A stretch of 64,000 nt of DNA from assembly GCA_947507155.1 (NCBI GenBank), contig CANNOC010000010.1:20857-84856 (forward strand), in the 5' to 3' direction. Below are positions 1 to 18,172 of the stretch, one piece after another (the first letter of the stretch is position 1; every line of letters begins with the position of its first letter). The DNA comes from an uncultured Collinsella sp. GTDB taxonomy: Bacteria > Actinomycetota > Coriobacteriia > Coriobacteriales > Coriobacteriaceae. Both the position numbers and the translations under genes were made by a program. The notes under the pieces are model-generated. The model made no database searches. It saw nothing but the letters and a program-made list of their open reading frames with translations, and had not been told where the DNA came from.

Positions 1-732
1 TGGCGAGACGTGATCTTCGAGCACATAGCCGGCGATGCGCGGATCTTTGGTCGCGGACTCTTCGGACACCGCAACGTCGAGCATGCGATCGACGCGGTAG
101 GGCGTGAACGGCTGATGGCCCGAGCCGGCGTTGGCCCATTTATCTCTAAACCCAATCATGTAATAGAGTTCGTCGGAGTAGATAAGACGCACGGGTGTGA
201 GCTCGTAGGTCTTTCCGTCATGGTTGAAGGCCTTTTGCTTGGCGGCGTTGTAGTGGAAGTAGCGGAAGCGGATCTTGCGCTTTTCGCGCATGGCTTGCTG
301 GATAAGGTCGATATTGTGCAGAGCATCGGAGTTTTGCATCTTCACACGCGAAGGCACGTCGACGCGCTTGTGCATCAGCTCGCGTTCGTCCAGGCTGGCG
401 AGGCTCTGTAGTTTGTCGATGAGGTGGTCGGTCAGCTCATCGGTCAAAAACGGCGAACTCTGCACGGCGTCAACAAGCATGATGAGTTCTTGCAGGTCGA
501 GCGGGCGTGAGACCAACGCCCATTCCTTGCCACCGCGCTGGTCGATGTCGAGCCCGAAGTCGCGAAGGGTTTGCAGGTCGCGATAGATGGCCTTTCGTTC
601 GGCCTCGAGATCGTGATAGGCGAGCTCCTCGATGATCTGCTGCGTCGTGAGTCCGTGCGTGCTGTCGGTCTTTTCCATCAAGGTTTTAAGCAGGAACAGA
701 AGCCTGAGCTTTTGGTTTGGTCTGTTCGCCAC
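1..732 (-). CDS. WYL-domain helix-turn-helix transcriptional regulator (C-terminus truncated by window edge)
   Basis: Reverse strand reads GTG at 732: VANRPNQKLRLLFLLKTLMEKTDSTHGLTTQQIIEELAYHDLEAERKAIYRDLQTLRDFG... then KRKIRFRYFHYNAAKQ...YELTPVRLIYSDELYYMIGFRD, typical HTH+WYL layout. Open to the window edge, so absent from the ORF track. Confidence 0.8.
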   Translation of the reverse strand, partial: MANRPNQKLRLLFLLKTLMEKTDSTHGLTTQQIIEELAYHDLEAERKAIYRDLQTLRDFGLDIDQRGGKEWALVSRPLDLQELIMLVDAVQSSPFLTDELTDHLIDKLQSLASLDERELMHKRVDVPSRVKMQNSDALHNIDLIQQAMREKRKIRFRYFHYNAAKQKAFNHDGKTYELTPVRLIYSDELYYMIGFRDKWANAGSGHQPFTPYRVDRMLDVAVSEESATKDPRIAGYVLEDHVSP

Positions 733-954: not shown

Positions 955-2052
955 ATGGCAGACATCAAAGTCTTTGCCGAGAATCTTGAGGATTCAACCA
1001 AGGAGCAGATCGAGGAGATCTCTAGCTGCCCGGCGTTTGAAGGCGCCAAGATCCGCATCATGCCCGATGCCCATAAGGGCAAGGGCTGCGTGATTGGTTT
1101 TACGGCAAACTTGGGCGACAAGGTCATTCCTAATTTGGTGGGCGTCGACATCGGATGCGGTATGTACTGCGTACCGCTTGCAGAGACTATTGCGCGCGAT
1201 GACCTCATTCAGTTCAATCGCGACGTGAAGCGCGCAGTGCCCACGGGCTTTAGCCTTCATCGCGATCCTGCCTGCGTACTTGCGGACTTTGGCATGGAGT
1301 CGCGCGATTGGCTTCAGGATAAACGCAAGGTTGAGCGCTCCATGGGCACGCTGGGCGGCGGTAACCACTTCATTGAACTCGACGAGGACGAGAATGGGTG
1401 CCAATATCTGGTCGTGCACACCGGCTCGCGCAACATGGGCAAGCAGACGGCGGAGCACCATCAGGCGCTGGCGCAGAAGACGTGCACGGCAGATATCCCT
1501 GACGAGCTTAAGTATCTCGTGGGAGATCTTTCTGCCGAGTATCTCGTCGATATGCATAACTGCCAACGCTTCTCGAATCAGAACCGCAAGGCGATTGTCG
1601 CACAGATTGTTGAGCGTACGGGAATTCGACTCGACGGAGACGGCTTTACCACCATGCACAACTACATCTCGGAAGGCGGCATGATTCGCAAGGGCGCCAT
1701 TAGCGCTCATGCAGGCGAGATGGCGCTGATTCCGTTCAACATGCGCGACGGTGCCGTTATTGCGCGCGGCAAGGGAAACGAGGACTGGAACTGCTCGGCG
1801 CCGCACGGGACGGGTCGTGCGATGAGCCGCACCAAAGCATTCCAAACGCTCGATACCAGGTCGTTCGTTAACGAGATGCGCGATGCCGGCATCTACTGTC
1901 CGAGTGCATGCGAGACGACGCTCGATGAGTCGCCCGAAGCGTATAAGCCTGCGGATGATGTATTGAGACTCATGGACCCGACGGTTGATGTTATTCACCG
2001 ACTCAAGCCGATTTGGAATTTTAAGGCTACTGGTAAGCGCGGTAGGCGTTAG
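955..2052 (+). CDS. rtcB: RtcB family RNA-splicing ligase
   Basis: Motifs IMPDAHKGKGCVIGFTA, GVDIGCGMYCVPL, MGTLGGGNHFIEL, HTGSRNMGKQ, APHGTGRAMSRTKA; start at MADIKVF with upstream aggag. Confidence 0.93.
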   Translation: MADIKVFAENLEDSTKEQIEEISSCPAFEGAKIRIMPDAHKGKGCVIGFTANLGDKVIPNLVGVDIGCGMYCVPLAETIARDDLIQFNRDVKRAVPTGFSLHRDPACVLADFGMESRDWLQDKRKVERSMGTLGGGNHFIELDEDENGCQYLVVHTGSRNMGKQTAEHHQALAQKTCTADIPDELKYLVGDLSAEYLVDMHNCQRFSNQNRKAIVAQIVERTGIRLDGDGFTTMHNYISEGGMIRKGAISAHAGEMALIPFNMRDGAVIARGKGNEDWNCSAPHGTGRAMSRTKAFQTLDTRSFVNEMRDAGIYCPSACETTLDESPEAYKPADDVLRLMDPTVDVIHRLKPIWNFKATGKRGRR

Positions 2053-2062
2053 GAGGGTTGCG

Positions 2063-2881
2063 ATGACGCTAAAGATGGACTCCAGGGACGACCGAATTGG
2101 CCGTTCTGTGAGTATGGGCGAGCTGATGAGCTTCCCGGGCGTGATGCCGCCGTCCGCGAATCGGTGCGGCGGGAATCGTGGAGAGCGTGATGACGAGGGT
2201 TTTGACCTCAGCGGTTTTCACAGTCGGCTGGTTTCTGGACTCGACCGTGGTGTGGAAACGTCACTGTTCGCAGCTCCGCGCTTGTTGAAAGCCGGCATGT
2301 CGGCCGATGACGCCCTAGGTGGCGGCGTTGGGCTGGGCAAGCTCAGCGTGATTGGCGGTGCGCATGAAGACGTTTCGAACGTGCTGGCACACGCGGTGCT
2401 GCGCCTGAGTGAGCAGTGCGCCGTGCTTTACGTGCCGATTCGGGAGCGTGAAGAGGATGCGATTGCCCGGCTTATTCGTGCCGAGATGGATGGCAAGGTG
2501 TCAGAGGATCCTGAGGAGCAACAGGTTGAGACAATCCGCGCAACGATGCGCCTCAAGCAGCGCAACCTGGGCATCTTTGTCGAAGACAACATGACCATGG
2601 ACCTTGTAACAAGTTGGTTGCTCGGCGACCAAATGTGGAACAGAGCAGTGCTAAAGGACGTCGTAGCCGTAATCGACGGACTCGAAATGCTCGACGACAA
2701 CCGCTCGGTAAACGCTGTCCTGCGTGACTTGCGCAACATGCTCAGCCCAACATCCGCCATCCTGGCAGGATGCTTTGCGGCGGAGGGCCGAGAGGACGAC
2801 GCAACATTCGCGGAGACCCACTGCAATGCAGATGTCCTGGTCCACATGAGTTCCGATGGTGAAAATCCCATCTACATGTGA
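2063..2881 (+). CDS. DnaB/RecA-fold-like protein with degenerate Walker A (uncharacterised)
   Basis: ATG 2063 preceded by aggagg overlapping the rtcB end. Segment DALGGGVGLGKLSVIGGAHEDVSNVLAHAVLRLSEQCAVLYVPI resembles the DnaB C-terminal domain, and DVVAVIDGLEML is Walker-B-like. Confidence 0.5.
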   Translation: MTLKMDSRDDRIGRSVSMGELMSFPGVMPPSANRCGGNRGERDDEGFDLSGFHSRLVSGLDRGVETSLFAAPRLLKAGMSADDALGGGVGLGKLSVIGGAHEDVSNVLAHAVLRLSEQCAVLYVPIREREEDAIARLIRAEMDGKVSEDPEEQQVETIRATMRLKQRNLGIFVEDNMTMDLVTSWLLGDQMWNRAVLKDVVAVIDGLEMLDDNRSVNAVLRDLRNMLSPTSAILAGCFAAEGREDDATFAETHCNADVLVHMSSDGENPIYM

Positions 2882-3059: not shown

Positions 3060-4115
3060 CTATTCTTCGACTAAAGCTGCGATGTCATCGAGTTGCTTGC
3101 GAATACCTAAAAACTCTGTGTCAAGATCGAGTGTCCGACAGTGGAAGCGATAGCCGGTTTCATCCCAGCTTTCGCACATTGACCTCGCGTTATCAGTGAG
3201 AGCGTAAAGAAGCATGCCCTCGACCGCCCCTGTTTTTCGCGACCATGATTCATGGGCAACGTAGGAATAGATTTGATTGCGATGGGCTGGGGATAGAATT
3301 TCGGATTCCATGTGCTGGTGAAGAATAGTCCCGTAACATTTGCAGTCAATGATGAGGGTTCGACCGGGGCCTTCAAGAGTGACGTCTGTCAGTAATGCCG
3401 GCAATATCTTTGGAGCGTTGTCCGATCCTGATGCCACTCGATGGGCAGATGCCCTAAGATCGGGATGCTCGGCGCGATAATACTCCAGTACAAAATGTTC
3501 AAAGAGAGCGGAGAGTTTCTGATTGTCCCGCCATTTGCCAAAAGCGGTATCACCTGAATAAAGTGTCGGCAGGCTATTCTCAATTACGGCATGACAGACT
3601 CCCATAAGAAGGCGATAACCGCGGTTTCCTCCGTGAAAGGAGAGCCTTCCCCAGTCGATAGAGGAAGGTCGAATATTGTCGATAGAATCGAGCTGACGAT
3701 AATAACTTCTAAGTAGGTTTTTCCGTTCGGTGCCGACTGCGCCAGAGCGAGCGAGGGTGCCCACTGCGCATTTAAGCACCCTGTTCATCTGAGTATTGAC
3801 TGTCCATTCGTCGCTGGTACACCTAATGCTTCGGCGCCCAGCGGAGCGCAGCTGTGATGTCCGAGCCATATCGATTTTCCCGCGAATACCAAGAAAGTCC
3901 TCGGAAACCTCGGCATAACCGTGCTCCAGACCACGTTTGAGTCGTGATGAGATGCCGATTGAGAGGATGGCCGCAAGTAGGTCTTCGACGTGCTCAAACT
4001 CCTCGGTCTCGATAGACGCATATTCATCGAGACCGAGGGCTTTGAAGGCATAGGCCATCATGTAGTAGATGTTTCGAACGATGACCTTTTCTTCAGCTCT
4101 GGGCATTGACGGCAC
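3060..4115 (-). CDS. mcrC: McrC family 5-methylcytosine restriction system component
   Basis: VIVRNIYYMMAYAFKAL...FLGIRGKIDMARTSQLR...FEHFVLEYYRAEHPDLRASAHRV...LLTDVTLEGPGRTLIIDCKCYGT; follows and overlaps the mcrB-like gene. Confidence 0.82.
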   Translation of the reverse strand: MPSMPRAEEKVIVRNIYYMMAYAFKALGLDEYASIETEEFEHVEDLLAAILSIGISSRLKRGLEHGYAEVSEDFLGIRGKIDMARTSQLRSAGRRSIRCTSDEWTVNTQMNRVLKCAVGTLARSGAVGTERKNLLRSYYRQLDSIDNIRPSSIDWGRLSFHGGNRGYRLLMGVCHAVIENSLPTLYSGDTAFGKWRDNQKLSALFEHFVLEYYRAEHPDLRASAHRVASGSDNAPKILPALLTDVTLEGPGRTLIIDCKCYGTILHQHMESEILSPAHRNQIYSYVAHESWSRKTGAVEGMLLYALTDNARSMCESWDETGYRFHCRTLDLDTEFLGIRKQLDDIAALVEE

Positions 4116-5670
4116 CTTCGAGGACGCTTATTGCCGCATCCGCTTTGGCTCGATCATCGAACCAATATTCACGGATGAGTGGGTTGAGTTCGTATTTAAC
4201 GATGTCGTCAACACACCCTTTGCCGGAGCGACAGAGGTAACTATGTCCAATCTCGTACCCTTCACCGAGCGCGGGGTCGGAGGCAATGTCGATGTTTACC
4301 GAGCGTACCGCATTGACGAGAGAGGGCATTCTTTTGTCGGCACATTTCGATGCATCTTTGAGGAAAGAGGTGTTATTGAGAGCTGGGGTCATGCGAAAGA
4401 AAGCGAACCTTCTGCGAAGTGCATAGTCGATAAGGGCAATGCTACGATCAGCGGTGTTCATGGTGCCGATAATGAAGACATTGTCTGGTACGAAAAAGGG
4501 CCTTCCATCGATAGCGAGACTGGTGGGATTGCCGCGATGTCCGGCTTCTATAAGGCTCAAGAGTTCTCCAAATACCTTTGAGATATTCGCTCGATTGATC
4601 TCGTCGATTAGGAAGAAGTAGTCACTGTTGGGATCGCTTGCCGCTTTTTGACAGAATGAGGTGAAGACGCCCGCTTTGATATCGAATCCGCCTGCATCAT
4701 TTGGACGGTATCCAATGACGAAGTCCTCATAGGTTGTCCCTTGGTGGAATTGAACGGTTTCTATCTTGGAGTTGTCTCGCTTGCCCATGAAGCTCCAAGC
4801 GAGTCTTTTTGCGCAAAACGTCTTCCCTGTTCCTGGAGCACCGTCGAGGATAAGATTTCGCTTTGCCTTAAGGAGTCGTTTGAGCTGTGAGAGATCATTT
4901 GCGTCAAGATAGACGTCATTTAAAAAGTCGTCGTCAGTGTATGCGCTGCCGTCTTTGCTTGGCGAGGCGTTGGAGTCCGTAGGCAATTCTGAATCTTCGG
5001 CAGGATTAGATGTAGCGTCTCGCTTCGGGGCTTTATGGTCAAACGCTTCAGCCGAAATCTCGTAAAGGGGCCTACCCAGATGGCCCACCTTGTTAAGGAG
5101 CTCTAAATAACCGGTCCCATTTTGTTTGGATGACGTTACTAATATGCCGTAAACACTTTCGAGATAATTTCTGCTTAGTTGATCAAAAGGCATGAACGTG
5201 TCGGGCCTGCACCAGAACAATGCCATGGAGAGGTTTGCAAAGCCGATATTCTTTTGGGCCAATACTCGATCGAACAAATTGATGAACTGGACGTGATCTT
5301 CGTCTTCTGGTGAGTATGCCATTGCCTCTTCGAAGAAATCCCACTTCTCCTCAATGCTTGAGTCTATTCCGTCCATGTAACGCCAGCGCCTGTTATTTGA
5401 GGTGGGTACACCGGCATAGTCAGTGGGAATTGCGCCGTGAATATCGAGGCGGGCAAAAATGCTTTCGATTACCTTGGTGCGGCTATCGTAGCTTATCGAT
5501 CTGTTGAACAGAGACATGAACGTGAATGGATCCATTCTGTTTGTGTCTCCAGTATTTGCATTGTTCTTGCAGATTTCGAGAAGGGTTTCTTCGTCGTTTC
5601 GCATAGTCAGCAATTTTCGAGCGATTGCCGTGTAGGTATCGACCCATGTGAACTTCGTTTCGGTGTCCAT
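4093..5670 (-). CDS. mcrB: McrB-type AAA+ GTPase restriction subunit
   Basis: GAPGTGKTF Walker A, FHQGTTYEDFVIGYRP, FFLIDEINRANISKVFGELLSLIE, IIGTMNTADRSIALIDYALRRRFAFF. Likely start MDTETKFTW at 5670. Confidence 0.88.
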   Translation of the reverse strand: MDTETKFTWVDTYTAIARKLLTMRNDEETLLEICKNNANTGDTNRMDPFTFMSLFNRSISYDSRTKVIESIFARLDIHGAIPTDYAGVPTSNNRRWRYMDGIDSSIEEKWDFFEEAMAYSPEDEDHVQFINLFDRVLAQKNIGFANLSMALFWCRPDTFMPFDQLSRNYLESVYGILVTSSKQNGTGYLELLNKVGHLGRPLYEISAEAFDHKAPKRDATSNPAEDSELPTDSNASPSKDGSAYTDDDFLNDVYLDANDLSQLKRLLKAKRNLILDGAPGTGKTFCAKRLAWSFMGKRDNSKIETVQFHQGTTYEDFVIGYRPNDAGGFDIKAGVFTSFCQKAASDPNSDYFFLIDEINRANISKVFGELLSLIEAGHRGNPTSLAIDGRPFFVPDNVFIIGTMNTADRSIALIDYALRRRFAFFRMTPALNNTSFLKDASKCADKRMPSLVNAVRSVNIDIASDPALGEGYEIGHSYLCRSGKGCVDDIVKYELNPLIREYWFDDRAKADAAISVLEGAVNAQS

Positions 5671-5909: not shown

Positions 5910-6944
5910 TTATCGAGCACGATGCCGATATATATCCAGCCAACCGGGTTCTTCTTCTTTGTTGTCGGTGCACTCTTCTAACAAGTCATCTATCCGGTCC
6001 GGCTTGATCTCTTGCAATGCCGTGCATTCTTCTGGCAAGGGCTGTGTTACTTTCTTTGCTCTGAACACGGGCGACAACATCAAGTTCGTGTGTGCCCATC
6101 CGGCAAAGCAACTGCCGTAGGGGATAGAGCCACATCTGATCTGCCCATCGCCATCGGGATACAGGCAGTCCAATTTCGAGTTTGCTACCAGGCAATAACA
6201 AGGGCCTGGTGCCCATGGCCTGCAGTCGATCTCAAGAATGTCGCCCTTTCTGTACGGCGTGGGCAGGTCGACATATGCCCCCTTGAACCACGGGCCAAAG
6301 ATCCCACCCACAATGCAGTCGAGCACCTCGCCACATTCGCCCTCTTCTTCCCTGCAGATGTACTGGATTTCGCCGGAGACGTTTGCGTAGTAAGTGTAGT
6401 CCGGCTGCAGAAAGCCGTCGTATGGATATGAACAGCTCGGGTCGTTGGCAAGGTTGAACAGCTCGACCATCCAGTATGAGGACGATAAGTCTGTCATTTC
6501 GCTCCACTTGTCTGCGTATGCCTTCATTGCCGCAAGGGCGGCCTGCCAGGATGCCACGGGGAAGGGGCCATGCGTGATGGCGGATCCCACTTCGTTGCCG
6601 ATAAAGCTAATTTCGCTAATAAGCAGCACCTTCCTGTTCCCGTCGACGGCCTTTAGCGCGTCTAGACAGTCATCGATGTAGTCGATACAGATCTCTGGCC
6701 CGTACCAAGAAAAGGTTTCGTCTGACGAACTGCGCTCGGCAGCAACCAGCTTGCTGAGCATCTCCCGTTTGCGGTTGATTTCTATCGACGCGCCACTGAT
6801 GATTTGCGAGTAATGATCGCCACTCAGCAGCTGCGGATTATGCAGCAAATGCTCTCGCAGCTCCGGAGATTCGATCAGGTTGATTATTTCTTCGTGCACG
6901 ATAGTCTCCGAGTTGTTGGTGCGACTTCTTGTGGATTCGGACAT
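5910..6944 (-). CDS. Uncharacterised protein, N-type module of a local paralogous family
   Basis: HGPFPVASWQAALAAMKAYADKWSE...SSYWMVELFNLAND...DLPTPYRKGDILEIDCRPWAPGPCYCLV aligns to the N-terminal halves of the 8029 and 10328 gene products. Confidence 0.75.
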   Translation of the reverse strand: MSESTRSRTNNSETIVHEEIINLIESPELREHLLHNPQLLSGDHYSQIISGASIEINRKREMLSKLVAAERSSSDETFSWYGPEICIDYIDDCLDALKAVDGNRKVLLISEISFIGNEVGSAITHGPFPVASWQAALAAMKAYADKWSEMTDLSSSYWMVELFNLANDPSCSYPYDGFLQPDYTYYANVSGEIQYICREEEGECGEVLDCIVGGIFGPWFKGAYVDLPTPYRKGDILEIDCRPWAPGPCYCLVANSKLDCLYPDGDGQIRCGSIPYGSCFAGWAHTNLMLSPVFRAKKVTQPLPEECTALQEIKPDRIDDLLEECTDNKEEEPGWLDIYRHRAR

Positions 6945-6952
6945 GGTGGCCT

Positions 6953-8026
6953 TTATTCAAATAGCTGCGGGTACTTCTCCTTGAGCGGTGCCTGATCCAG
7001 ACGTAGCTCTTCCAGGTTGCGCTTTGCCTTGGACTCCATCCTTATGGTGTCGATAAACGCGATGAGTGAGTCGACATACAGATCGCCGCGCAGGTAGGCC
7101 TGGGCGGCGATTAAAATTCGCTGCTCGTCTTCGAGTGGTTTGCGATAGTACTCTAGATTCAGGTAAAGCGGGTCTGGCTCGCCGATGTAGAGGGGAAACG
7201 TCTCGTTGTAGGTAATCGAGCAGCCAGTGGCGCGCATGTTGCTGATATCCCCTGCATGGCGATAGTGCTCGAGGCGCTGCTGCGCATGATCAAGCCATTC
7301 GTCAGAACGGTCTGCCTGCCGAAGCTCTGCCTCAAGCTTTGTCCGGTCCCACGTGGGCAGATCGAACAACGTGAACGGCTCACGGGCACTGCCTTGCGGC
7401 GTCCAGACGATATCGCCGGTGTGAAACGGCGTGGGGATATCGACCCAGATGAACTCGAATGCGATCTCCCAATCGTTCTCAACGGGGCCGGCTGAAGGGC
7501 AATAAACGGAAAGGGGCTCACCTTTGCCGTTCACCATGAGCCAATCTTCCCGGTGATGTTCTTCGTCGGCATCGAGCGGGCACCGGGTGATGCGTACGCG
7601 TGTCTCTGGACGGCTCGCCAGTTCATCATCACCGCGCAACGCCTCGGCACATTTCTCATAACAGCTGAATGGCGCGCCGAAGGCCCCACAAAGTTGCCCG
7701 TCGGGCACAATCTCCTCTTCATACTGATAAACGTAGCCCGTCCCACTCGCAAACGCATCGACGCACCGCTTGTTGTAATCGATTGTCCAGCTCAAAAAAG
7801 CATGGAAATCGGGGATGGCCGGCCTTCCAAGACCGGCATGGGTTGCTTCCAACGAACAATTGGGCATGGTACGCGCGATCTCCTGCCAGGCTTCGCACTT
7901 CTGCTCGAGCGTGGCGGTCTTCGAAAACCAAACCAGATAGGCGGCCTCGATGGTGCTGGGCTGGAAGTCGATACTGCGCAGGTGCCCCCGAATGTCCTGG
8001 GAGTCCACAAAATCCAGGATGTTCAT
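6953..8026 (-). CDS. Uncharacterised protein, C-type module of a local paralogous family
   Basis: FVDSQDIRGHLRSIDFQPSTIEAAYLVWFSKTATLEQKCEAWQEIARTMPNC...WVDIPTPFHTGDIV...LYIGEPDPLYLNLEYYRKPL aligns to the C-terminal halves of the 8029 and 10328 gene products. Confidence 0.75.
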   Translation of the reverse strand: MNILDFVDSQDIRGHLRSIDFQPSTIEAAYLVWFSKTATLEQKCEAWQEIARTMPNCSLEATHAGLGRPAIPDFHAFLSWTIDYNKRCVDAFASGTGYVYQYEEEIVPDGQLCGAFGAPFSCYEKCAEALRGDDELASRPETRVRITRCPLDADEEHHREDWLMVNGKGEPLSVYCPSAGPVENDWEIAFEFIWVDIPTPFHTGDIVWTPQGSAREPFTLFDLPTWDRTKLEAELRQADRSDEWLDHAQQRLEHYRHAGDISNMRATGCSITYNETFPLYIGEPDPLYLNLEYYRKPLEDEQRILIAAQAYLRGDLYVDSLIAFIDTIRMESKAKRNLEELRLDQAPLKEKYPQLFE

Positions 8027-8028
8027 GG

Positions 8029-10161
8029 TTAGCTCCTCTTTGTTTTGAATCGTGCCGGCGGGGCTATCGTGTTATCGAACAGCTCCGGATAGCGGGACTT
8101 GAGCCCGCCGTCTTCTCCTTCAAACCGCTCGGCTTTTTTCTTGACCAGCGCCTGCAGCTCGAAAAGACTTGATAGCGCAATAAGTGAGTCAAGACCCAGA
8201 TTGCCGTCGAGATATGCCCGCACGCCGTACAGAATTCTCGCCTCCGGTTTGAGCGGGGTACGGCAGTATTCCATATCGAGAAGAAAACAACTCGGCTCTC
8301 CGATATAGATGGGGTACTCCAGGGGATATTCAATCTGACAGCCGTAGGCGTACATGTCGCTCGTATCGCCATTTTGCCGATGGTGCCTGAGCAGGTCGTC
8401 GGCCTTATTTGCGGCGCATTCCCTGTAGGTGGAAGGCGGAAGCTCATCCATGACTCGCTTCGTGGTCCATGTCTGCATATTGAGAAGCAGCATGGGGTCG
8501 CCAGGGTCGCCGTGCCGACAAATGATGTCGCCGGCGTGGAATGGCGTCGGGATGCCAAACCACATCAGCGCAAAGGCAAAAGTGGGGTCTTCGCCCTCGC
8601 GTTCCTTGTCGATGCAGCGCAGCTGGCAATCCATGACCTTGCCATTTGCGTCGAGCATGAGCTTATCGGCGGCATAGTAGTCTTCGTCCGGATCGATCGG
8701 GCGGCGTGTTACTTCAATCGAGGTAGGATTCTCCCCCTCAAGCTCATTCCAGATTGCCTCGAAACATTTTTCGTAGCTAGTGTAGGGGCCATAATTGCAC
8801 CCGCTCTCATGGGGACTTCCCGTCTTGTCCTCAAAGAAATACATGTGCTTGCCAGGTTGTTTGAACCGGGCGATTTTCTTGCGCTCCCATCTGATGACGT
8901 CGCGAAGAAAGACATGGAAGTTGGGGATATTGAACGTGCCGTATCGCCTGCTCATCGCGCAATTGGGCATGTTTTCGAGAATCTTTTGCCAGGCCTCGAT
9001 CTTCTGGTGCAGCGTCTTTTCGCTCGAACGGTCGACGATGAACGCCGCCTCGGGCGTGGTGGGTTCGTAGCCGATGCCTTCCAAATGCTCTCTGATATCG
9101 GGCGAGTCGAGAAACTCGAGAATGTCCGAACGTATGGCGTTGACGCCGGCGCCGGCCGATGTGCGGTATGGCTGCAGGCAGTCGTGTACGACCGATCCGT
9201 CCGACCATTGTTTGCCGTAGCTGGGATCATCGTGCAGCTTTTTCGAGAGCTCGAGCATAAAGGGGCAATCATCGGGCAATTCGCCGGTATAACGTTCGGC
9301 GGTATAGAGGGCAGAGGGCGTGAAGTCGTCGAGGAAGCCGTCCGTGAAATCCCTCAAGCGGAGATTGCCTTCCTCAACGCCGTAGATTTTGCTCGGATAG
9401 GCGCACCAAACCTGGCCTTTGAACGAACTATCGTAGTCGTCTTCGAGCACGATGGCAAAACGGGGACCGTGATCGAAGGGCCGACCGTCGATCTTGATGA
9501 TGTCGCCGGGGACCCAGGGAGTGTAAAAGACCTCACCATTGGCGCAGAAGTGCTTGCTATTGTTCCACGGCAAGTGATCGATGCTTTGGTGCGGAGTCCG
9601 CTGATTCCGGCGATCGCTCAAAAAGACCAAATCGCCAGCCATGGTCGCGGCGAATATCAGCGAGGCTTGAGCGCGCGGGCGGTCGTGTAAGTCTTCGGCG
9701 GTATAGAGCTTAATCTGCCAGAATGATTCGGACCAATCTTCATCGGGGTCATCATCGACGTATTGCTTCATGAGGATTTGCGCAGCTTCCCATGAGGCAA
9801 CGGGGAAGGGGCCATCAAAGGTGTCGTGCCCACGCTCCTCTTCACTGTAAAACATGCCGGAGATTAGAAGGGTGCCGTGGTCGCGGTCAACGTTGTAAAG
9901 CATATCGAGCGCGCTGTTGAGCTGGTCAAGGCCGGAGTCAATCGCCTCGGCGTAATCCGATGAGACCTCTTTGCGAAGCTGCTCGAGCATGGCTCGTTTT
10001 TCGTCGAGCGTCTTGAGGGAGCCGCCGATGATTCTACAGAGGGAGCCATCTGCCATTCCCATGTGTTTGAACATATGAACACGCAGCTCATCGTTCTTGA
10101 TGCAACTGCAAACGAGCTCCCTGCCGGCATCGGTGATCACGGTATCTGCTTTGCTGTCCAT
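8029..10161 (-). CDS. Uncharacterised two-module (N+C) paralogous family protein
   Basis: Start MDSKADTVITDAGRELV with ggaggttact RBS. N-half: DGPFPVASWEAAQILMKQ...TPWVPGDIIKIDGRPFDHGPRFAIVLEDD. C-half: FLDSPDIREHLEGIGYEPTTPEAAFIVDRSSEKTLHQKIEAWQKILENMPNCAMSRR. Confidence 0.82.
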   Translation of the reverse strand: MDSKADTVITDAGRELVCSCIKNDELRVHMFKHMGMADGSLCRIIGGSLKTLDEKRAMLEQLRKEVSSDYAEAIDSGLDQLNSALDMLYNVDRDHGTLLISGMFYSEEERGHDTFDGPFPVASWEAAQILMKQYVDDDPDEDWSESFWQIKLYTAEDLHDRPRAQASLIFAATMAGDLVFLSDRRNQRTPHQSIDHLPWNNSKHFCANGEVFYTPWVPGDIIKIDGRPFDHGPRFAIVLEDDYDSSFKGQVWCAYPSKIYGVEEGNLRLRDFTDGFLDDFTPSALYTAERYTGELPDDCPFMLELSKKLHDDPSYGKQWSDGSVVHDCLQPYRTSAGAGVNAIRSDILEFLDSPDIREHLEGIGYEPTTPEAAFIVDRSSEKTLHQKIEAWQKILENMPNCAMSRRYGTFNIPNFHVFLRDVIRWERKKIARFKQPGKHMYFFEDKTGSPHESGCNYGPYTSYEKCFEAIWNELEGENPTSIEVTRRPIDPDEDYYAADKLMLDANGKVMDCQLRCIDKEREGEDPTFAFALMWFGIPTPFHAGDIICRHGDPGDPMLLLNMQTWTTKRVMDELPPSTYRECAANKADDLLRHHRQNGDTSDMYAYGCQIEYPLEYPIYIGEPSCFLLDMEYCRTPLKPEARILYGVRAYLDGNLGLDSLIALSSLFELQALVKKKAERFEGEDGGLKSRYPELFDNTIAPPARFKTKRS

Positions 10162-10214
10162 AGTAACCTCCAATTCGGTCGTTGCCGTTAGCATCCATCA
10201 GAGGTTGTGCTTTG

Positions 10215-10236
10215 TGGTCCCATTAACGGGTCCCAT
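10215..10236 (-). promoter_or_regulatory. Leader palindrome upstream of the 10161 start
   Basis: tggtcccattaacggg(tccca); the identical 16-mer lies the same distance upstream of the paralogue at 12454. Confidence 0.5.
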
Positions 10237-10257
10237 ATGAATCTCGCGTCAAACATA

Positions 10258-10327
10258 TTTTTGGAAACGCCACTGGTGCATGGGCGGCTGCGTGTTGAAT
10301 GGACAATCGGTAGTGGCGTTTCAAAAA
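10258..10327. repeat. Inverted repeat directly after the stop codon of the 10328 gene
   Basis: tttttggaaacgccact (10258-10274) and agtggcgtttcaaaaa (10312-10327). Confidence 0.65.
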
Positions 10328-12454
10328 CTAAGCGTAACTGGCGCAACCTCCCTCTAAGAAGGGATCGGCCGTCGTATCGAACAGCTCCGGGTAGCGGTCC
10401 TTGAGCCAGCTGTCTGCATCCTCGAAGCCGCGTGCCTTTTTCTCCGCCAGCGCCTGTAGCTCGCATGCGCTGGCCATCGCGGCGAGCGAATCAACCGCCA
10501 GGTCACCTCTGACATACGCCCTGACGCCGTAGAGGATTCGCTCCTCCGACTTGAGCGGCTTACGATAATAGTCAATGTCCAAAAGAAAGCCCTCAGGCTC
10601 CCCAATGTAGAAGGGGAAATGCAAGGCGGATGAGACTTGGCACCCGTAGGCGTACATGTCGCTGGTGTCGCCGTCATATCGGTGCCAGCGCAATAGCTTG
10701 TCGGCCTTTTGAACGAGGCGCTCTTTGTAGACGGAGGAAGCAAGCTCTTTGTCGACTCGTTCGGATCCCCAAGTTTGCAGGTCAAACAGCACCATCGGCT
10801 CGTCGGGGCGTTGGAGGTTGCAGACGATGTCTCCGGCATGGAAGGGCGTTGGGATATCGAACCACATGTCCTCGAAATCGCTCGCGGTGCCCGCCTCGTC
10901 CCACTCACCCTCGAACCGGTAATCGCAAGACATTACTTCGCCGTTCGCATTGAGTAAGACCATGTCGTCGGCATAGTGGTCTTCGTCCGGGTCGATGGGG
11001 CGGCGAGTGATCTTGATCGCCTTTGGATTGTCGCCTTCGAATTCTCTCCAGATGGCATCGAAGCATTTTTGATAACTGCTGTACGGGCCGTAAAGAAGGT
11101 CGCATCGGTCGCGCCGGTCCCACGAGTAGTCCTCAAAGAAATACAGACTCTGGCCGTCCGTCCTTTTAAAGTGTGCGAGCTTTCTTTGCTCCTGCCTGAT
11201 GACATTGCGCAGAAAGGCATGAAAGTCAGGGATGTTGACCGTGTCGTTTCTGCGGCTCATGGCGCAATTGGGCATGGTGTCGATGATCTTTTGCCAGCCT
11301 TCGAGCTTTTGCTGCAGCGTCGCTTTATGCGAGCGGTCGACGATAAAAGCCGCTACGGGCGTGGTGAGCTCGTAGTTGATTCGTTGAAGGTGCTCCTTAA
11401 TGCTGCGCGAGTCCAAAAACTCAAAGATGTCCGGACGAATATCCAACTCACTTTGGCTGGTAGGCTTGCAGCGCGGCTGCAGGCAATCGTGCCCGACCGA
11501 GCCTTCGGACCACTGCTTGCCGTAGTCAGGGTTGTCGTGCAGCTTCTGCGAAAGTTCGATCATAAAGGCGCAGTCGTCCGGCAGGTCACCGGTGTAGCGC
11601 TCGGCGGTGTAGAGGGCAGATGGGATGAAGGGGTCCAAGAGACTGTCGCTGAAGGTGCCGGATGAAAGCGAACCCTCCTTAACACCATGATCTCTACTGG
11701 GCCCTGCGCACCAGATCTGTCCCCGGAGCGTGTGCTCGTAGTCGTTTTCGAGCACAATGGCAAAGCGAGGCCCGTGGTCGAAGGGGCGACCGTCGATTTT
11801 GAGGATGTCGCCCGGTACCCACGGCGTGTAGATAGGCTCGTTGTTCGTGCAGAACCGCCTGCTATCGTTTCGCCAGACGCTTTCGACATGCGATTTGCGA
11901 GTGCGGTGATTGCGCAGATCACGGAGGAATATAAGCTCGCCGTCCCTAGTTGCCGCAAACGTCAGGGAGGGCTGCGCCGTTTGGTGCTCGTGCAGGTCTT
12001 CCGCGGTGTAGAGATTGATCTTCCAGTACGATTCGGACCAGTCGTCGTCAGGATACTCTTCGATGTAGTGCTTCATGAGCGTTTTCGCGGCTTCCCAGGA
12101 TGCGGTGGGGAAGGGGCCGTCAAGGGCATCGACGTCGCGCTCCTCCTCGTTGTAGAGCATGACGTACAGTAGGAGGATTCCGCGGTCGCGCTCGACGTTG
12201 TTGAGCATGTCGAGCGCGCAGTTGAGCTGGGTGAGATGCGAATCGATATCTTCGGTCAGCTTCGGCGAAACCTCTTTGTGGAGTTGCTCAAGCATGGCGC
12301 GCTTTTCGTCAAGCGTTTTCAGCGAGCCGGCGATGATCGGCGCTGGCCAGTATAAGTATTTGCGCATGTGGTCTCGCAGCTCTTGGCTTTTGATGCAGCT
12401 GAGGACGAGGTCTTTGCCGGCATCGGTGATGCCATCGCTTGCCTGATTGTTCAT
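10328..12454 (-). CDS. Uncharacterised two-module (N+C) paralogous family protein
   Basis: Start MNNQASDGITDAGKDLV after ggaggcc; colinear similarity to the 8029 product (ITDAG, SLKTLDEKRAMLEQL, TPWVPGDILKIDGRPFDHGPRFAIVLEND, TMPNCAMSRR, IPTPFHAGDIV). Confidence 0.82.
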   Translation of the reverse strand: MNNQASDGITDAGKDLVLSCIKSQELRDHMRKYLYWPAPIIAGSLKTLDEKRAMLEQLHKEVSPKLTEDIDSHLTQLNCALDMLNNVERDRGILLLYVMLYNEEERDVDALDGPFPTASWEAAKTLMKHYIEEYPDDDWSESYWKINLYTAEDLHEHQTAQPSLTFAATRDGELIFLRDLRNHRTRKSHVESVWRNDSRRFCTNNEPIYTPWVPGDILKIDGRPFDHGPRFAIVLENDYEHTLRGQIWCAGPSRDHGVKEGSLSSGTFSDSLLDPFIPSALYTAERYTGDLPDDCAFMIELSQKLHDNPDYGKQWSEGSVGHDCLQPRCKPTSQSELDIRPDIFEFLDSRSIKEHLQRINYELTTPVAAFIVDRSHKATLQQKLEGWQKIIDTMPNCAMSRRNDTVNIPDFHAFLRNVIRQEQRKLAHFKRTDGQSLYFFEDYSWDRRDRCDLLYGPYSSYQKCFDAIWREFEGDNPKAIKITRRPIDPDEDHYADDMVLLNANGEVMSCDYRFEGEWDEAGTASDFEDMWFDIPTPFHAGDIVCNLQRPDEPMVLFDLQTWGSERVDKELASSVYKERLVQKADKLLRWHRYDGDTSDMYAYGCQVSSALHFPFYIGEPEGFLLDIDYYRKPLKSEERILYGVRAYVRGDLAVDSLAAMASACELQALAEKKARGFEDADSWLKDRYPELFDTTADPFLEGGCASYA

Positions 12455-12507: not shown

Positions 12508-12526
12508 TGGTCCCATTAACGGGACC
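12508..12526 (-). promoter_or_regulatory. Leader palindrome upstream of the 12454 start
   Basis: GGTCCC-attaac-GGGACC perfect inverted repeat; 16-mer shared with 10215-10230. Confidence 0.5.
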
Positions 12527-12661: not shown

Positions 12662-13372
12662 TTGTCCCAGCTCGAGAAATGCGATCGCCGGTCCCTTCGC
12701 TCGCAGCGTGCCCTTCGCCAGGCGCTTGCCAGCGAGCTTGCCGAAAGCGGTGACCTTTCGCGCATTAACGTCGCGTCGCTCACCGAGCGTGCCGGCCTTA
12801 CGCGCCGTACGTTCTATTCGCACTACCGCGATATCCCCGACTTTATCAATCAAATCGAGGACGGCTTGCTGGCCGAGATCCGTGAGCGCATTGAGCTCAT
12901 CACCGCAGCTCAGCTGCCCGATCTCTATCACAACATCGATGAGCTCGAGCCGGCGCCCGGTTCGGTTGAGCTGCTGCGTTATCTTGCGGCCAACCGCGAC
13001 TTAATCGGTGCGCTGCTGGGTCCGGGCGGCGATCAGGCCTTCATTAAAAGGATCATCGACACCGCTCGTGAGGCTGTGGTGCCGCGTGCGCAGACGGGCA
13101 TTTTGGGCCTGGCGCTGGGCACGTTCTTTGACTACTACGTCACCTACGTCGTGAGTGCCGAGGTCGGCATGATTCAGCGCTGGTTTGAGCGTGGGCTCAC
13201 CGAATCGCCCGAGGCCATAGCGCGCATTATGACGGTGCTCGCTTTTGTGCGCCCTGGTGACCTGTATGGCCAACCCATCGATATCAACGTGCCGGAATAC
13301 GGCATGAAGCTATTGAACTTGCAGCTCGAGGACGCGGCTGACACCGCCGCAACCGTCGAGTCCAACAACTAA
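12662..13372 (+). CDS. TetR/AcrR-type transcriptional regulator
   Basis: RRSLRSQRALRQALASELAESGDLSRINVASLTERAGLTRRTFYSHYRDIPDFINQIEDGLL; likely TTG start after aggaggacgc. Confidence 0.82.
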   Translation: MSQLEKCDRRSLRSQRALRQALASELAESGDLSRINVASLTERAGLTRRTFYSHYRDIPDFINQIEDGLLAEIRERIELITAAQLPDLYHNIDELEPAPGSVELLRYLAANRDLIGALLGPGGDQAFIKRIIDTAREAVVPRAQTGILGLALGTFFDYYVTYVVSAEVGMIQRWFERGLTESPEAIARIMTVLAFVRPGDLYGQPIDINVPEYGMKLLNLQLEDAADTAATVESNN

Positions 13373-13384
13373 GAGGAGAGACAG

Positions 13385-16300
13385 ATGAGCAAACTCGTCG
13401 AGGGCATCAAGGACCGCATGATCGCCGCCGCACGCGAGGCCGCGCCCACCGTGGTGGACGCCGCGCAGAAGGCCGCGACCGCGGCTGCCGAGAAAGTTGT
13501 CGAGGCTGTCGCCGATGCCAAGAACGCGACGGGGGAGACGTCCATCGCCAGCGAGCCCGCCACCGCCGCTGAGCCCGTAGCCGCCACCGCCGCCCACGCC
13601 CCCGAAGGTGCGATCTTCAACCCCGAGGCCGCCCACGGCAACCTGCACCTGGGCATCGACGTGGGCTCCACCACCGTTAAGCTCGCCGTGCTCAACGACG
13701 ACAACCAGATCGTCTACGCCAAGTACCAGCGCCACCACACCGACGTCCGCGCTTGCGCCCGCGACTTGTTCGAGGGTGCCGCGACTGTGCTGCCGATGGC
13801 CCAGATGACCTGTGCCATCACCGGCTCAGGCGGCCTGCTGCTGTCCCAGTGGCTCGATTTGGAGTTTGTCCAGGAGGTCATCGCCAGCAAGCGTGCCGTC
13901 GAGACCCTCATCCCGGCCACCGATGTCGCCATCGAGCTGGGCGGCGAGGACGCCAAGATCATCTACTTCGATAATGGCATTGAGCAGCGCATGAACGGCA
14001 CCTGCGCCGGCGGCACGGGCGCGTTCATCGACCAGATGGCCACTCTGCTGCACACCGATGCGAGCGGCCTTAACGAACTCGCGGCCAACGCCACCACCAT
14101 CTATCCCATTGCTAGCCGCTGCGGCGTTTTTGCCAAGACCGACGTCCAGCCGCTGCTCAACGAGGGCGCCCGCCCCGAGGACGTGGCTGCCTCCATCTTC
14201 CAGGCTGTCGTGACCCAGACCATCTCGGGTCTGGCGTGCGGCCGTCCCATCCGCGGCAACGTCGCCTTCCTGGGCGGCCCGCTGCAGTACCTCTCCGAGC
14301 TGCGCCACCGCTTCTACCTCACGCTCAACCTGGACGAGGAGCACCGTATCGTGCCCCAAAACGCCCACCTGTTTGTGGCGAGCGGCGCCGCCATGGCGCA
14401 CGAGTCCAATAAGCTCAGCACGTTCCCGCAGCTCATCGAGGCCATCGATGCCCTGGGCGACACACAGGGTGCCGAGGTCGAGCGCCTGGATCCGCTCTTT
14501 GCCACCGACGAGGACTTTGCCGAGTTCAAAACCCGCCACGACCAGGAAGTCGTCCCCAAGGGCAAGCTCGAAGGCTACACCGGCCGCGTGTTCATTGGCA
14601 TCGACGCCGGCTCCACCACCATGAAGGCCGCGCTCGTGGGCGAGGACGGCCAGCTGTTGCACACCTGGTACGGCAACAACAACGGCGACATCCTGGGCAC
14701 GGCCAAGGTCATCATGGCCGATTTCTACAACCACATCCCCGCCGGCTGCACCATCGGCCACGTGACCACCACGGGCTACGGCGAGGCGCTGCTCATCGAG
14801 GCCCTCAAAGCCGATTCCGGCGAGATCGAGACCGTCGCGCACCTGCGCGGCGCCAAGGCGTTCCTGCCCGGCGTCGAGTTTATCCTGGACATCGGCGGCC
14901 AGGACATGAAGTGCCTGCGCGTCAAGGACGGCGTTATCGAGCACATCATGCTCAACGAGGCCTGCTCGTCGGGTTGCGGTAGCTTTATCGAGAGCTTCGC
15001 CGTCTCTATGAACATGGACGTGCGCGCGTTCGCCGACGCGGCCATCCATGCCAAGGCCCCGGTCGACCTGGGCAGCCGCTGCACGGTCTTTATGAACTCG
15101 CGCGTTAAGCAGGCGCAAAAGGAAGGCGCCACGGTGGGCGACATCGCGGCCGGCCTGTCCTATTCCGTCATCAAGAATGCCCTGTTCAAGGTCATTAAGC
15201 TGCGCGACCCCAAGGAGATCGGCAGCCAGGTTATCGTTCAGGGCGGCACCTTTATGTCCGATGCCACGCTGCGCGCGTTTGAGCAGCTCACCGGCGTTCA
15301 TGCCGTGCGTCCCGACATCGCCGGCTGCATGGGCGCCTACGGTGCGGCCCTGCTCGCCCGCGATCGCGCCGGCGCCGACGGCATCTCGACCATCCTTTCC
15401 GCCGAGGACATCGCGCACCTTACCGTGACGCAAAAGCATGTCCGCTGCGGCCGTTGCTCTAACAACTGCCAGCTTACCGTCAACGACTTTGGTGGCGGCA
15501 GGCGCTTCATTACTGGCAACCGCTGCGAGAAGGGCGCCGGCCACAAAAAGCAGAAGACCGAGGCCCCCAACCTCTTCAAAAAGAAAAATGAGTTGCTCTT
15601 TAACCGCGAGGTGCTGAGCCCCGACGAGGCCCCGCGCGGCACCGTGGGTATCCCGCGCGCACTCAACATGTACGAGAACTACCCCTTCTGGCATGCGTTC
15701 TTTACGCGTCTGGGCTTTAGCGTGCAGCTGTCCGACCAGTCGAGCAAAAAGACCTATCAGGCGGGTATCGAGTCCATGCCGTCCGAGAGCGTGTGCTATC
15801 CGGCCAAGATGAGCCACGGCCACGTGATGAACCTCATCGACCGCGACGTCGACTTTATCTGGATGCCGTGCGTGCGCTGGGAGCGCAAGGAGGATCCGAC
15901 GGCTGGCAACTGCTATAACTGCCCCATCGTCATGAGTTACCCCACGGCGCTGGCGCTCAATATCGACGAGATTCGCGAGCAGAACATCGAGTTCCTGTAC
16001 CCGTTTGTGCCCTATCACGACAAGACCGAGCTCAAGCGCCGCCTGTACCAGGTGCTCGCCGTCGACCGCGTGGCCGATGCGCAAGCCGGTCGTGGTCGCG
16101 TGTGCGGTCCCAAGATCACGCGCTCCGAAGTCGATGCCGCTGTCAACGCTGCCTTTGAGGCCGACGCGCGCTTCCACGAAGACATCCAGACCATGGGCGA
16201 GGAGGCCCTTAAGTGGGTCGAGGACCACGGCGGTCACGGCATCGTGCTCGCCGGTCGTCCCTACCATAACGACCCCGAGATCAACCATGCCCTGCCCGAG

Positions 16301-18172
16301 CTTATCTCGAGCTTTGGCTTTGCGGTCTTTACCGAGGACTCGCTCGCGCATCTGGTAAAGCCCGAGCGTCCGATTCGCGTCGTTGACCAGTGGATGTACC
16401 ACAGCCGCCTGTACGCCGTCGCCCGTTTTGTGACGATGCGCAACGACCTGGACCTGATCCAGCTCAACTCTTTCGGCTGCGGCCTGGACGCTCTGACCAC
16501 CGACCAGGTGCAGGAGATCCTGGAGGCCAGCGGCAAGATCTACACCGTGCTCAAGATCGACGAGGTGTCCAACCTGGGCGCCGCGCGCATCCGCATCCGC
16601 TCGCTCATGGCAGCGCTCAAGGACCAGGAGGCCGAGCGCTTGGCCGAGGCCACGGCCGCGGGCGAGGCCTACGAGCAGGGCGATGCCGCGCCGGTGGCGC
16701 CTTCCACGGATGCCCCCGCGTTCGCGAGCCGTAAGTACACGTTCGAGGCGCAGCGCGAGAGTGCTTCGACCGCGTGGCCCAAGGTGCCCTTTACCGAGCA
16801 GATGCGCGACGAGGGCTACACCATCCTGTGCCCGCAGATGGCACCGATTCACTTTGACCTGGTCAAAGAGGTGTTCCGCGGTGCCGGCTACAACCTGGAG
16901 CTGCTGCCCTCGACCGACCACGACGCCGTCGAGGCCGGCCTGCGCTATGTGAACAACGACATTTGCTATCCGTCGATCCTGGTGACGGGCCAGATCATGG
17001 AGGCCATCGAGAGCGGTCGGTACGACCTGTCCAAGACGGCCGTGGTCATCAGCCAGACCGGCGGCGGCTGCCGTGCCACTAACTACATCGCGCTCATCCG
17101 CAAGGCGCTGCGCGAGAGCGGCCACCCCGAGATTCCGGTAATCTCGCTTTCGGCCGTGGCGCTCGGCGAGGACAACCCCGGCTTTAAGATTACGCCGGCG
17201 CTGCTTAAGCAGGCCGTGTACGCGGTGCTCTTTGGCGACGTGATGATGCAGATGCTCTATCGCTGCCGCCCGTACGAGGCCGCGCCCGGTGCCGCCAATG
17301 CGCTCTACGAGGAGTACATGGCGCGCGCCCGCAAGCTGGCGCCCAAGTTTAACCGCCACAACTACACCAAGCTGTGCCGCGAGGCCATCCGCGCGTTCGA
17401 CACCATGCCGCTCGTGGGCGAGGGCACCAAGCCGCGCGTGGGCGTAGTCGGCGAGATCCTGGTCAAGTTCCACCCTACGGCCAACAACCACGTGGTCGAC
17501 GTGATCGAGCGTGAGGGCTGCGAGGCCGTAGTACCGGGCCTGCTCGACTTCTTCCTGTACTCCATGAGCAACGCTGAGCTGCAGAAGGACGAGTTGGGAA
17601 GCTCTGCCACTACGCGCGCTGGTATGCAGGCGCTCATTAAGCTGGTGGACTGGATGCGCACGCCGGTGGAAGAGATGCTCGAAAAGTCCCGCCGCTTTGA
17701 GGCGCCCGAGCGCATCGGCACCATGGCCGACAAGGCCCGCACGGTGCTTTCGGTGTGCAACAACATGGGCGAGGGCTGGCTGCTCACGGCCGAGATGCTC
17801 GACCTAATCGACCATGGCGCGCCCAACATCATCTGCACGCAGCCCTTCGCGTGCCTGCCCAATCACGTAGTGGGCAAGGCCGTGATCAAGGAGCTGCGCC
17901 GTCAGCATCCCGAGAGCAACATCGTTGCGGTGGACTACGACCCCGGTGCATCTGAGGTCAACCAGCTCAACCGCATTAAGCTTATGATCAGCGTGGCCAA
18001 GGAAAACATGCGCGCCGGTAAGGGCTTTAAGCTCGAGAAGGTGGCGCCGCTCGCGATGGACGAGGTCACCGGCCAGATGCGTGCCCATGACGGCTGCGTG
18101 AGCTGCGGACCGGCCAGCGAGGACGCCGTGGCGTCGGTCGCCAAGCGTCTGGGGCGCGGCATTAAGAAGTAG
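13385..18172 (+). CDS. Large 2-hydroxyacyl-CoA dehydratase activase-type protein (tandem BadF/BadG/BcrA/BcrD ATPase domains, DUF2229 and HgdB-like region)
   Basis: [15 protein letters not shown] and [15 protein letters not shown] duplicated ASKHA motifs; [17 protein letters not shown] and [42 protein letters not shown]; 1595 aa. Confidence 0.88.
   Translation: [1595 protein letters not shown]

Follow-up and report, generated by a model that had tools for sequence, protein, structure and literature searches.

The window, by which we mean the whole analysed stretch of 64,000 nucleotides from an uncultured human-gut Collinsella sp. whose genome is close to C. aerofaciens (contig CANNOC010000010.1), carries four related minus-strand genes at 5910-12454, whose open frames are intact. 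The features recorded at this locus were as follows.

1..732, minus strand: 5' part of the gene for a WYL-domain regulator, divergent from the RtcB gene and extending to the left of the window; start codon estimated
955..2052, plus strand: RtcB-family RNA ligase; the open frame runs from 877
1985..2881, plus strand: 298-aa open frame kept in all four islands described below; start uncertain, perhaps 2063
3060..4115, minus strand: McrC, assigned by family search
4093..5670, minus strand: McrB-type AAA protein of McrBC; variable cargo that the other islands are without
5910..6944, minus strand: g4N, N module alone, 344 aa; 8 nt downstream of g3C
6953..8026, minus strand: g3C, C module alone, 357 aa; 2 nt downstream of g2NC
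8029..10161, minus strand: g2NC, second N+C fusion, 710 aa; 61% identity to g1NC
10216..10233, no strand: degenerate copy of the GGTCCCATTAACGGGACC inverted repeat, 55 nt upstream of the g2NC start codon
10328..12454, minus strand: g1NC, protein with fused N and C modules, 708 aa; N at about residues 1-335, C at about 336-708
12509..12526, no strand: inverted repeat GGTCCCATTAACGGGACC (GGTCCC-ATTAAC-GGGACC), 55 nt upstream of the g1NC start codon
12541..12569 (G000:C10:33397-33425), no strand: right island boundary, 29-bp palindrome TGTGACAAAGGGRCWGYCCCTTTGTCACA (TGTGACAAAGGG...CCCTTTGTCACA)
12662-13372: TetR gene flanking the island
G000:C10:17260-17288, outside the window, no strand: left island boundary, copy of the palindrome, located by a genome pattern search

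A preliminary description of this DNA had presented the four genes as paralogues in one co-directional block. They do share a strand, but they make up one end of an island that extends further, and g1 is set apart, 166 nt upstream of g2; the closely spaced g2, g3 and g4 look like one operon. The relationship among the genes is firm. A search of the genome itself with g1NC returned exactly four loci, at 100, 61, 38 and 28% identity, and since these are the four places of the array, chance is excluded. The motifs quoted in the preliminary description are present in the four proteins, which are, as it also said, large and acidic (pI 4.6-4.9) and contain no long hydrophobic stretches. However, the four are not equivalent: two are N+C fusions, one is a C module only and one an N module only.

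Splitting the proteins gave an N module of about 335 aa and a C module of about 370 aa. We made several observations by comparing them. First, identity among the C modules is 38-59%, and g4N shares 26-29% with the other N modules. In addition, N and C, whose single-sequence similarity is borderline, aligned in a profile comparison (hhalign) with a probability of 97.5% and an E value of 6e-12 over 265 collinear columns, with a GD motif common to both. On this alignment N and C are distant homologues within one N/C superfamily, which suggests that a single ancestral module was duplicated and then diverged. Finally, N and C occur together in several forms, being fused in g1 and g2, in tandem in g3/g4 and in genome G322, and convergent in three g11 genomes and on contig L008. 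As part of the overall explanation that we tentatively favor below, the two modules may function jointly, whether fused or as separate partners.

The preliminary description could name no family for these proteins, and our searches agree. The four proteins and their homologues had no significant match in Pfam, NCBIfam, PADLOC or PHROGs (best E value, 0.013), and the N/C family had none among the PDB sequences. Among the libraries searched, the N/C proteins are thus new to annotation; accessory loci with WYL, RtcB and restriction genes are known in outline. The predicted structure of the C module (g3C) was fair (pLDDT 76.7, pTM 0.75), and that of the N module (g4N) was of low confidence (pLDDT 63.8). 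Foldseek, which the preliminary description had proposed as a check, turned up no confident relative, either in the PDB (no E value below 0.5) or among viral models, the N half being weakly covered because of its poor model. The sole high-probability viral match was a 95-aa phage protein with an E value of 0.055, and no RNA-binding fold was recognised among the structure matches. The clearest residue conserved at the same place in both modules is the Asp of a TP(F/Y)xxGD motif. No shared set of catalytic residues is visible in N and C, on which ground we call the proteins probably non-enzymatic. A short member in G181 is without the middle domain; judging from its sequence and from the secondary structure of the C model, the proteins may be assembled from three parts, helical at the N terminus, beta-alpha-beta in the middle, and a third that carries the GD motif.

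For the inverted repeat in the leader of g1NC, 0.01 strand-wise matches were expected in the window and four were found. Upstream of g1 it is kept in loci L006 and L007, with decayed forms upstream of g2. Folded as RNA, the sequence upstream of g1 is predicted to form a hairpin (z of -2.2 and -2.7 in two genomes), and no clear hairpin was predicted upstream of g2. The repeat may serve as an operator or fold as a hairpin in the leader. A search of the rest of the island, including the surroundings of the WYL and RtcB genes, did not find it again, and we therefore rejected it as a single operator for the whole island.

The island measures 16,108 bp (16.1 kb) between the two palindromes and is inserted between a HAD hydrolase gene and the TetR gene. 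The enclosed stretch runs exactly from UvrD to g1NC, in the order UvrD/PD-(D/E)XK helicase-nuclease, WYL regulator, RtcB, 298-aa frame, McrC, McrB and the four N/C genes. The palindrome is dispersed, with 13 copies in the genome, two of which flank the island; the reversed control pattern gave none. In every island-free Collinsella locus among the matches listed, the HAD hydrolase gene lies close to TetR. The island is therefore a mobile or accessory element with defined boundaries and empty sites in relatives. Directly after TetR, at 13385-18172 of the window, lies a gene of 1595 aa that by eye resembles a 2-hydroxyacyl-CoA dehydratase activase. In G101 (L077) and G149 (L079), the gap between HAD and TetR holds a different small insert with a short hydrophobic open frame (MTDLIDFVRLLTALVSFFTALVGL...), reminiscent, by eye, of holin-like type I toxins, and palindromes are nearby.

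Other islands were found in G166, G234 and G302, and all of them keep the gene content except McrBC. The order of the four N/C genes is the same in all four islands, at 86-96% identity. Gene-wide dN/dS between islands was 0.12-0.29 for the four genes, which is purifying rather than diversifying selection; despite this, g2NC is frameshifted in G234 (L007 8001-10130). In Collinsella, the constant part of the island consists of the UvrD/PD-(D/E)XK helicase-nuclease, WYL, RtcB and the N/C family, and a variable slot holds another gene. In the window this slot is filled by McrBC, a type IV restriction pair of which both the McrB AAA domain and McrC are present. The gene that replaces it (L006 12491-13615, L007 12511-13557, L105 7155-8192) encodes 345-374 aa, the copies being 34-35% identical to that of L006, and had no match in Pfam or PADLOC. 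The 298-aa frame had no match in Pfam, NCBIfam or the PDB. In G302 (L105 5024-6198), RtcB is split into two frames.

Of 45 Collinsella genomes, 4 carry the array and one more has only a single C-type gene. In a class sample of 300 genomes, the N profile matched 5 and the C profile 8. With about 40 of the 45 Collinsella genomes and most of the class sample lacking them, the genes are accessory; the preliminary description had held that fixation in all relatives would count against its reading, and such fixation was not found. Members also occur in another family of the order, where the g11 genomes have a convergent N-C pair and a second C gene, G309 has a C gene and G322 has the tandem pair. 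A more distant member is found in G031 (hhalign to C, 97.5%, E value 5e-12). Scans of viral contigs and of plasmids with profiles and single sequences gave no N/C match. The single match in a phage collection was MT835647.1 (L008), a faecal contig with a remote homologue whose C copy is a fragment. This contig was deposited as 'Bacteriophage sp.', and its glycosyltransferase and LysM/GH25 genes (by eye) resemble a bacterial chromosome. It is probably bacterial rather than phage, and we rejected it as a phage-borne member because the contig is unverified and its genes look bacterial.

We examined which genes recur beside the N/C genes. A WYL gene lies within about 10 kb of them in G000, G166, G234, G302, G119, G034, G241, G296, G309 and G181, and RtcB is near them in the four islands, G119, G241 and G309. 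Thus the distant members in G119 (another Collinsella), G034, G241, G296 and G309 all have WYL close by, often with UvrD, RtcB, a phosphoribosyltransferase or a macro domain. The phosphoribosyltransferase occurs in the g11 and G119 loci; G302 has a macro-domain gene between g1NC and g2NC, and G296 has one close to its C gene. On the L008 contig, a WYL remnant stands beside the N gene, and in G181 a WYL gene and a phosphoesterase-like gene are near the short N/C member. Metallophosphoesterase-like genes are also near the members of G031 and G217; a family search confirms that of G217, and those of G031 and G181 were named by eye. In addition, the G217 member lies beside an AAA protein and a TIR-like protein. 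The preliminary description had proposed looking for enrichment near defence genes or phage-linked loci. Neighbors of conflict or defence type were found (McrBC, UvrD-nuclease, WYL and RtcB).

All five Collinsella N/C carriers also have UvrD and RtcB. RtcB is present in 6 of the 45 Collinsella genomes, and five of these six are N/C carriers (Fisher 5e-6, with kinship ignored). Because these genomes are related to one another and a single island is common to four of them, this value reflects a few independent events at most. In the class sample, RtcB was found in 5 of 8 N/C carriers and in 53 of the 292 others (p = 0.008), a modest association. The N/C-bearing genomes G034, G296, G217, G322 and G343 have no detectable RtcB, which counts against an RtcB-linked reading and led us to reject a strict dependence of the family on RtcB. 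RtcB thus accompanies the N/C genes often but not always. UvrD genes of the close group (about 63% identity and above) travel with N/C, whereas homologues of about 40% identity are widespread without N/C, and UvrD was thus discarded as a marker of the family. The linkage has to be read with the caveat that WYL genes are common and that the strongest cases of co-occurrence are related genomes. The only Collinsella with RtcB but without N/C is G043:C4 (L125), in which RtcB and a WYL gene 39% identical to that of the island are about 7 kb apart.

The cassette is present in some strains and missing from others, and it also holds genes for DNA restriction, RNA repair and regulation; the N/C genes therefore probably belong to a stress or anti-virus system rather than being ordinary household genes. 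Their genomic setting is well supported; as to their biochemical role, we infer, with some hesitation, that the N/C family supplies an accessory component with two modules, probably without enzymatic activity, to an RNA-damage or defence cassette under WYL control. We favor this role because WYL, RtcB, helicase-nuclease and phosphoesterase genes repeatedly accompany the family, in arrangements that vary from locus to locus. In the literature, WYL domains have been predicted to sense ligands in defence systems (PMC4012209), WYL factors have been linked to cyclic-ended RNA fragments and conflict systems (PMC9503650), and RtcB ligates cyclic-type RNA ends (PMC11090510). By analogy with this known biology, damage by a phage or toxin would produce RNA ends or nucleotide signals, the WYL regulator would sense these signals and the island would be induced, and RtcB would rejoin the cleaved RNA. 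As a guess, the N/C proteins would serve as an adaptor or scaffold on the damaged RNA or its ends, and McrBC and the UvrD-nuclease would attack invading DNA. A DNA-targeting or regulatory role for the N/C proteins is equally compatible. A more specific version, in which the N/C proteins are a class of nucleic-acid sensors/effectors acting with RtcB under WYL control, the two-module adaptor recognising cut RNA and choosing between repair and growth arrest, seems unlikely, if conceivable. For the unnamed family there is now a defined architecture and a sequence model, together with partners that recur and a clean accessory island for which empty sites are known; its function has thereby become testable. 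If the link to RNA damage is true, the family would be a missing component type for bacterial RNA-repair and defence cassettes in gut Actinomycetota.

Nearly as likely as this reading, and like it only a possibility, is an independent N/C module for anti-phage or stress functions that is self-contained and has only its insertion hotspot in common with RtcB, WYL and UvrD, with no joint mechanism of RNA repair. The fused proteins could then, for example, arrest growth after binding nucleic acid or a product of the phage. The unrelated gene in the McrBC slot of other islands indicates that cargo is shuffled, N/C members without RtcB exist, and the AAA and TIR-like neighbors in G217 and the phosphoesterase-like genes near the members of G031, G217 and G181 also suit such a module. 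However, WYL, UvrD and RtcB accompany the N/C genes in more than one family of the order and in varying gene orders, and this is harder to account for by a hotspot alone.

The preliminary description had taken the array for a conflict, toxin/immunity or host-interaction set. The surroundings are indeed of conflict or defence type, but a conflict-diversified toxin/immunity or host-interaction array is improbable. In its favor are the tandem paralogues, the acidic soluble proteins and the accessory distribution; yet no toxin, secretion or surface gene is adjacent, no immunity family was matched, and the purifying selection and constant gene order across the four islands speak against diversification. 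Beyond the array itself, there is no evidence for the toxin/immunity part of that description. It is even less probable that the N/C genes are a DNA-level partner of McrBC, such as a specificity or accessory subunit. McrBC does lie directly downstream in the same direction, but the four genes stay in other islands while the slot gene differs, and no McrC was found near the homologues searched elsewhere; a role as McrBC subunits was rejected because the other islands are without McrBC. That these are fixed housekeeping paralogues, to which purifying selection might point, is ruled out by their patchy distribution and the clean empty sites.

Finally, we compared the cassette of our preferred reading, the WYL-controlled one for RNA damage or defence, with known systems. 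Like Rtc operons (RtcR/RtcA/RtcB) and RtcB2-PrfH, the island places an RtcB-family ligase beside a transcription factor of ligand-sensing type and is accessory and strain-specific. The ligase is present in the window and the Collinsella islands, and some other N/C loci are without it. The island regulator is a WYL protein, whereas RtcR is of the CARF/sigma-54 type, and on reading the island genes we noticed no RtcR, rtcA or prfH. In addition, the island adds the UvrD-nuclease, the optional McrBC and the N/C family, for which we know of no counterpart in described Rtc operons.

The island contains a complete McrB-McrC pair, as in McrBC type IV restriction, including its CoCoNuT relatives (PMC11090510), but the pair belongs to the variable cargo here, and none of the McrBC components resembles the N/C proteins. 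RNA repair and McrBC have been linked before, through RtcR-like CARF regulators near CoCoNuTs (PMC11090510). The island UvrD helicase scores against the PADLOC models of GajB, the helicase-side match to Gabija (GajAB); however, it has its own PD-(D/E)XK domain, and PADLOC run on all ten island genes gave only this GajB-like match and no GajA-type nuclease. Conflict systems linked to ADP-ribose or NAD (PMC9503650) share the WYL regulator with the island, and a macro domain or phosphoribosyltransferase accompanies some N/C loci, but these enzymes are optional there and missing from the island of the window. The macro-domain genes of two distant N/C loci (L105 12847-13437 and L038 7780-8370) are 52% identical.
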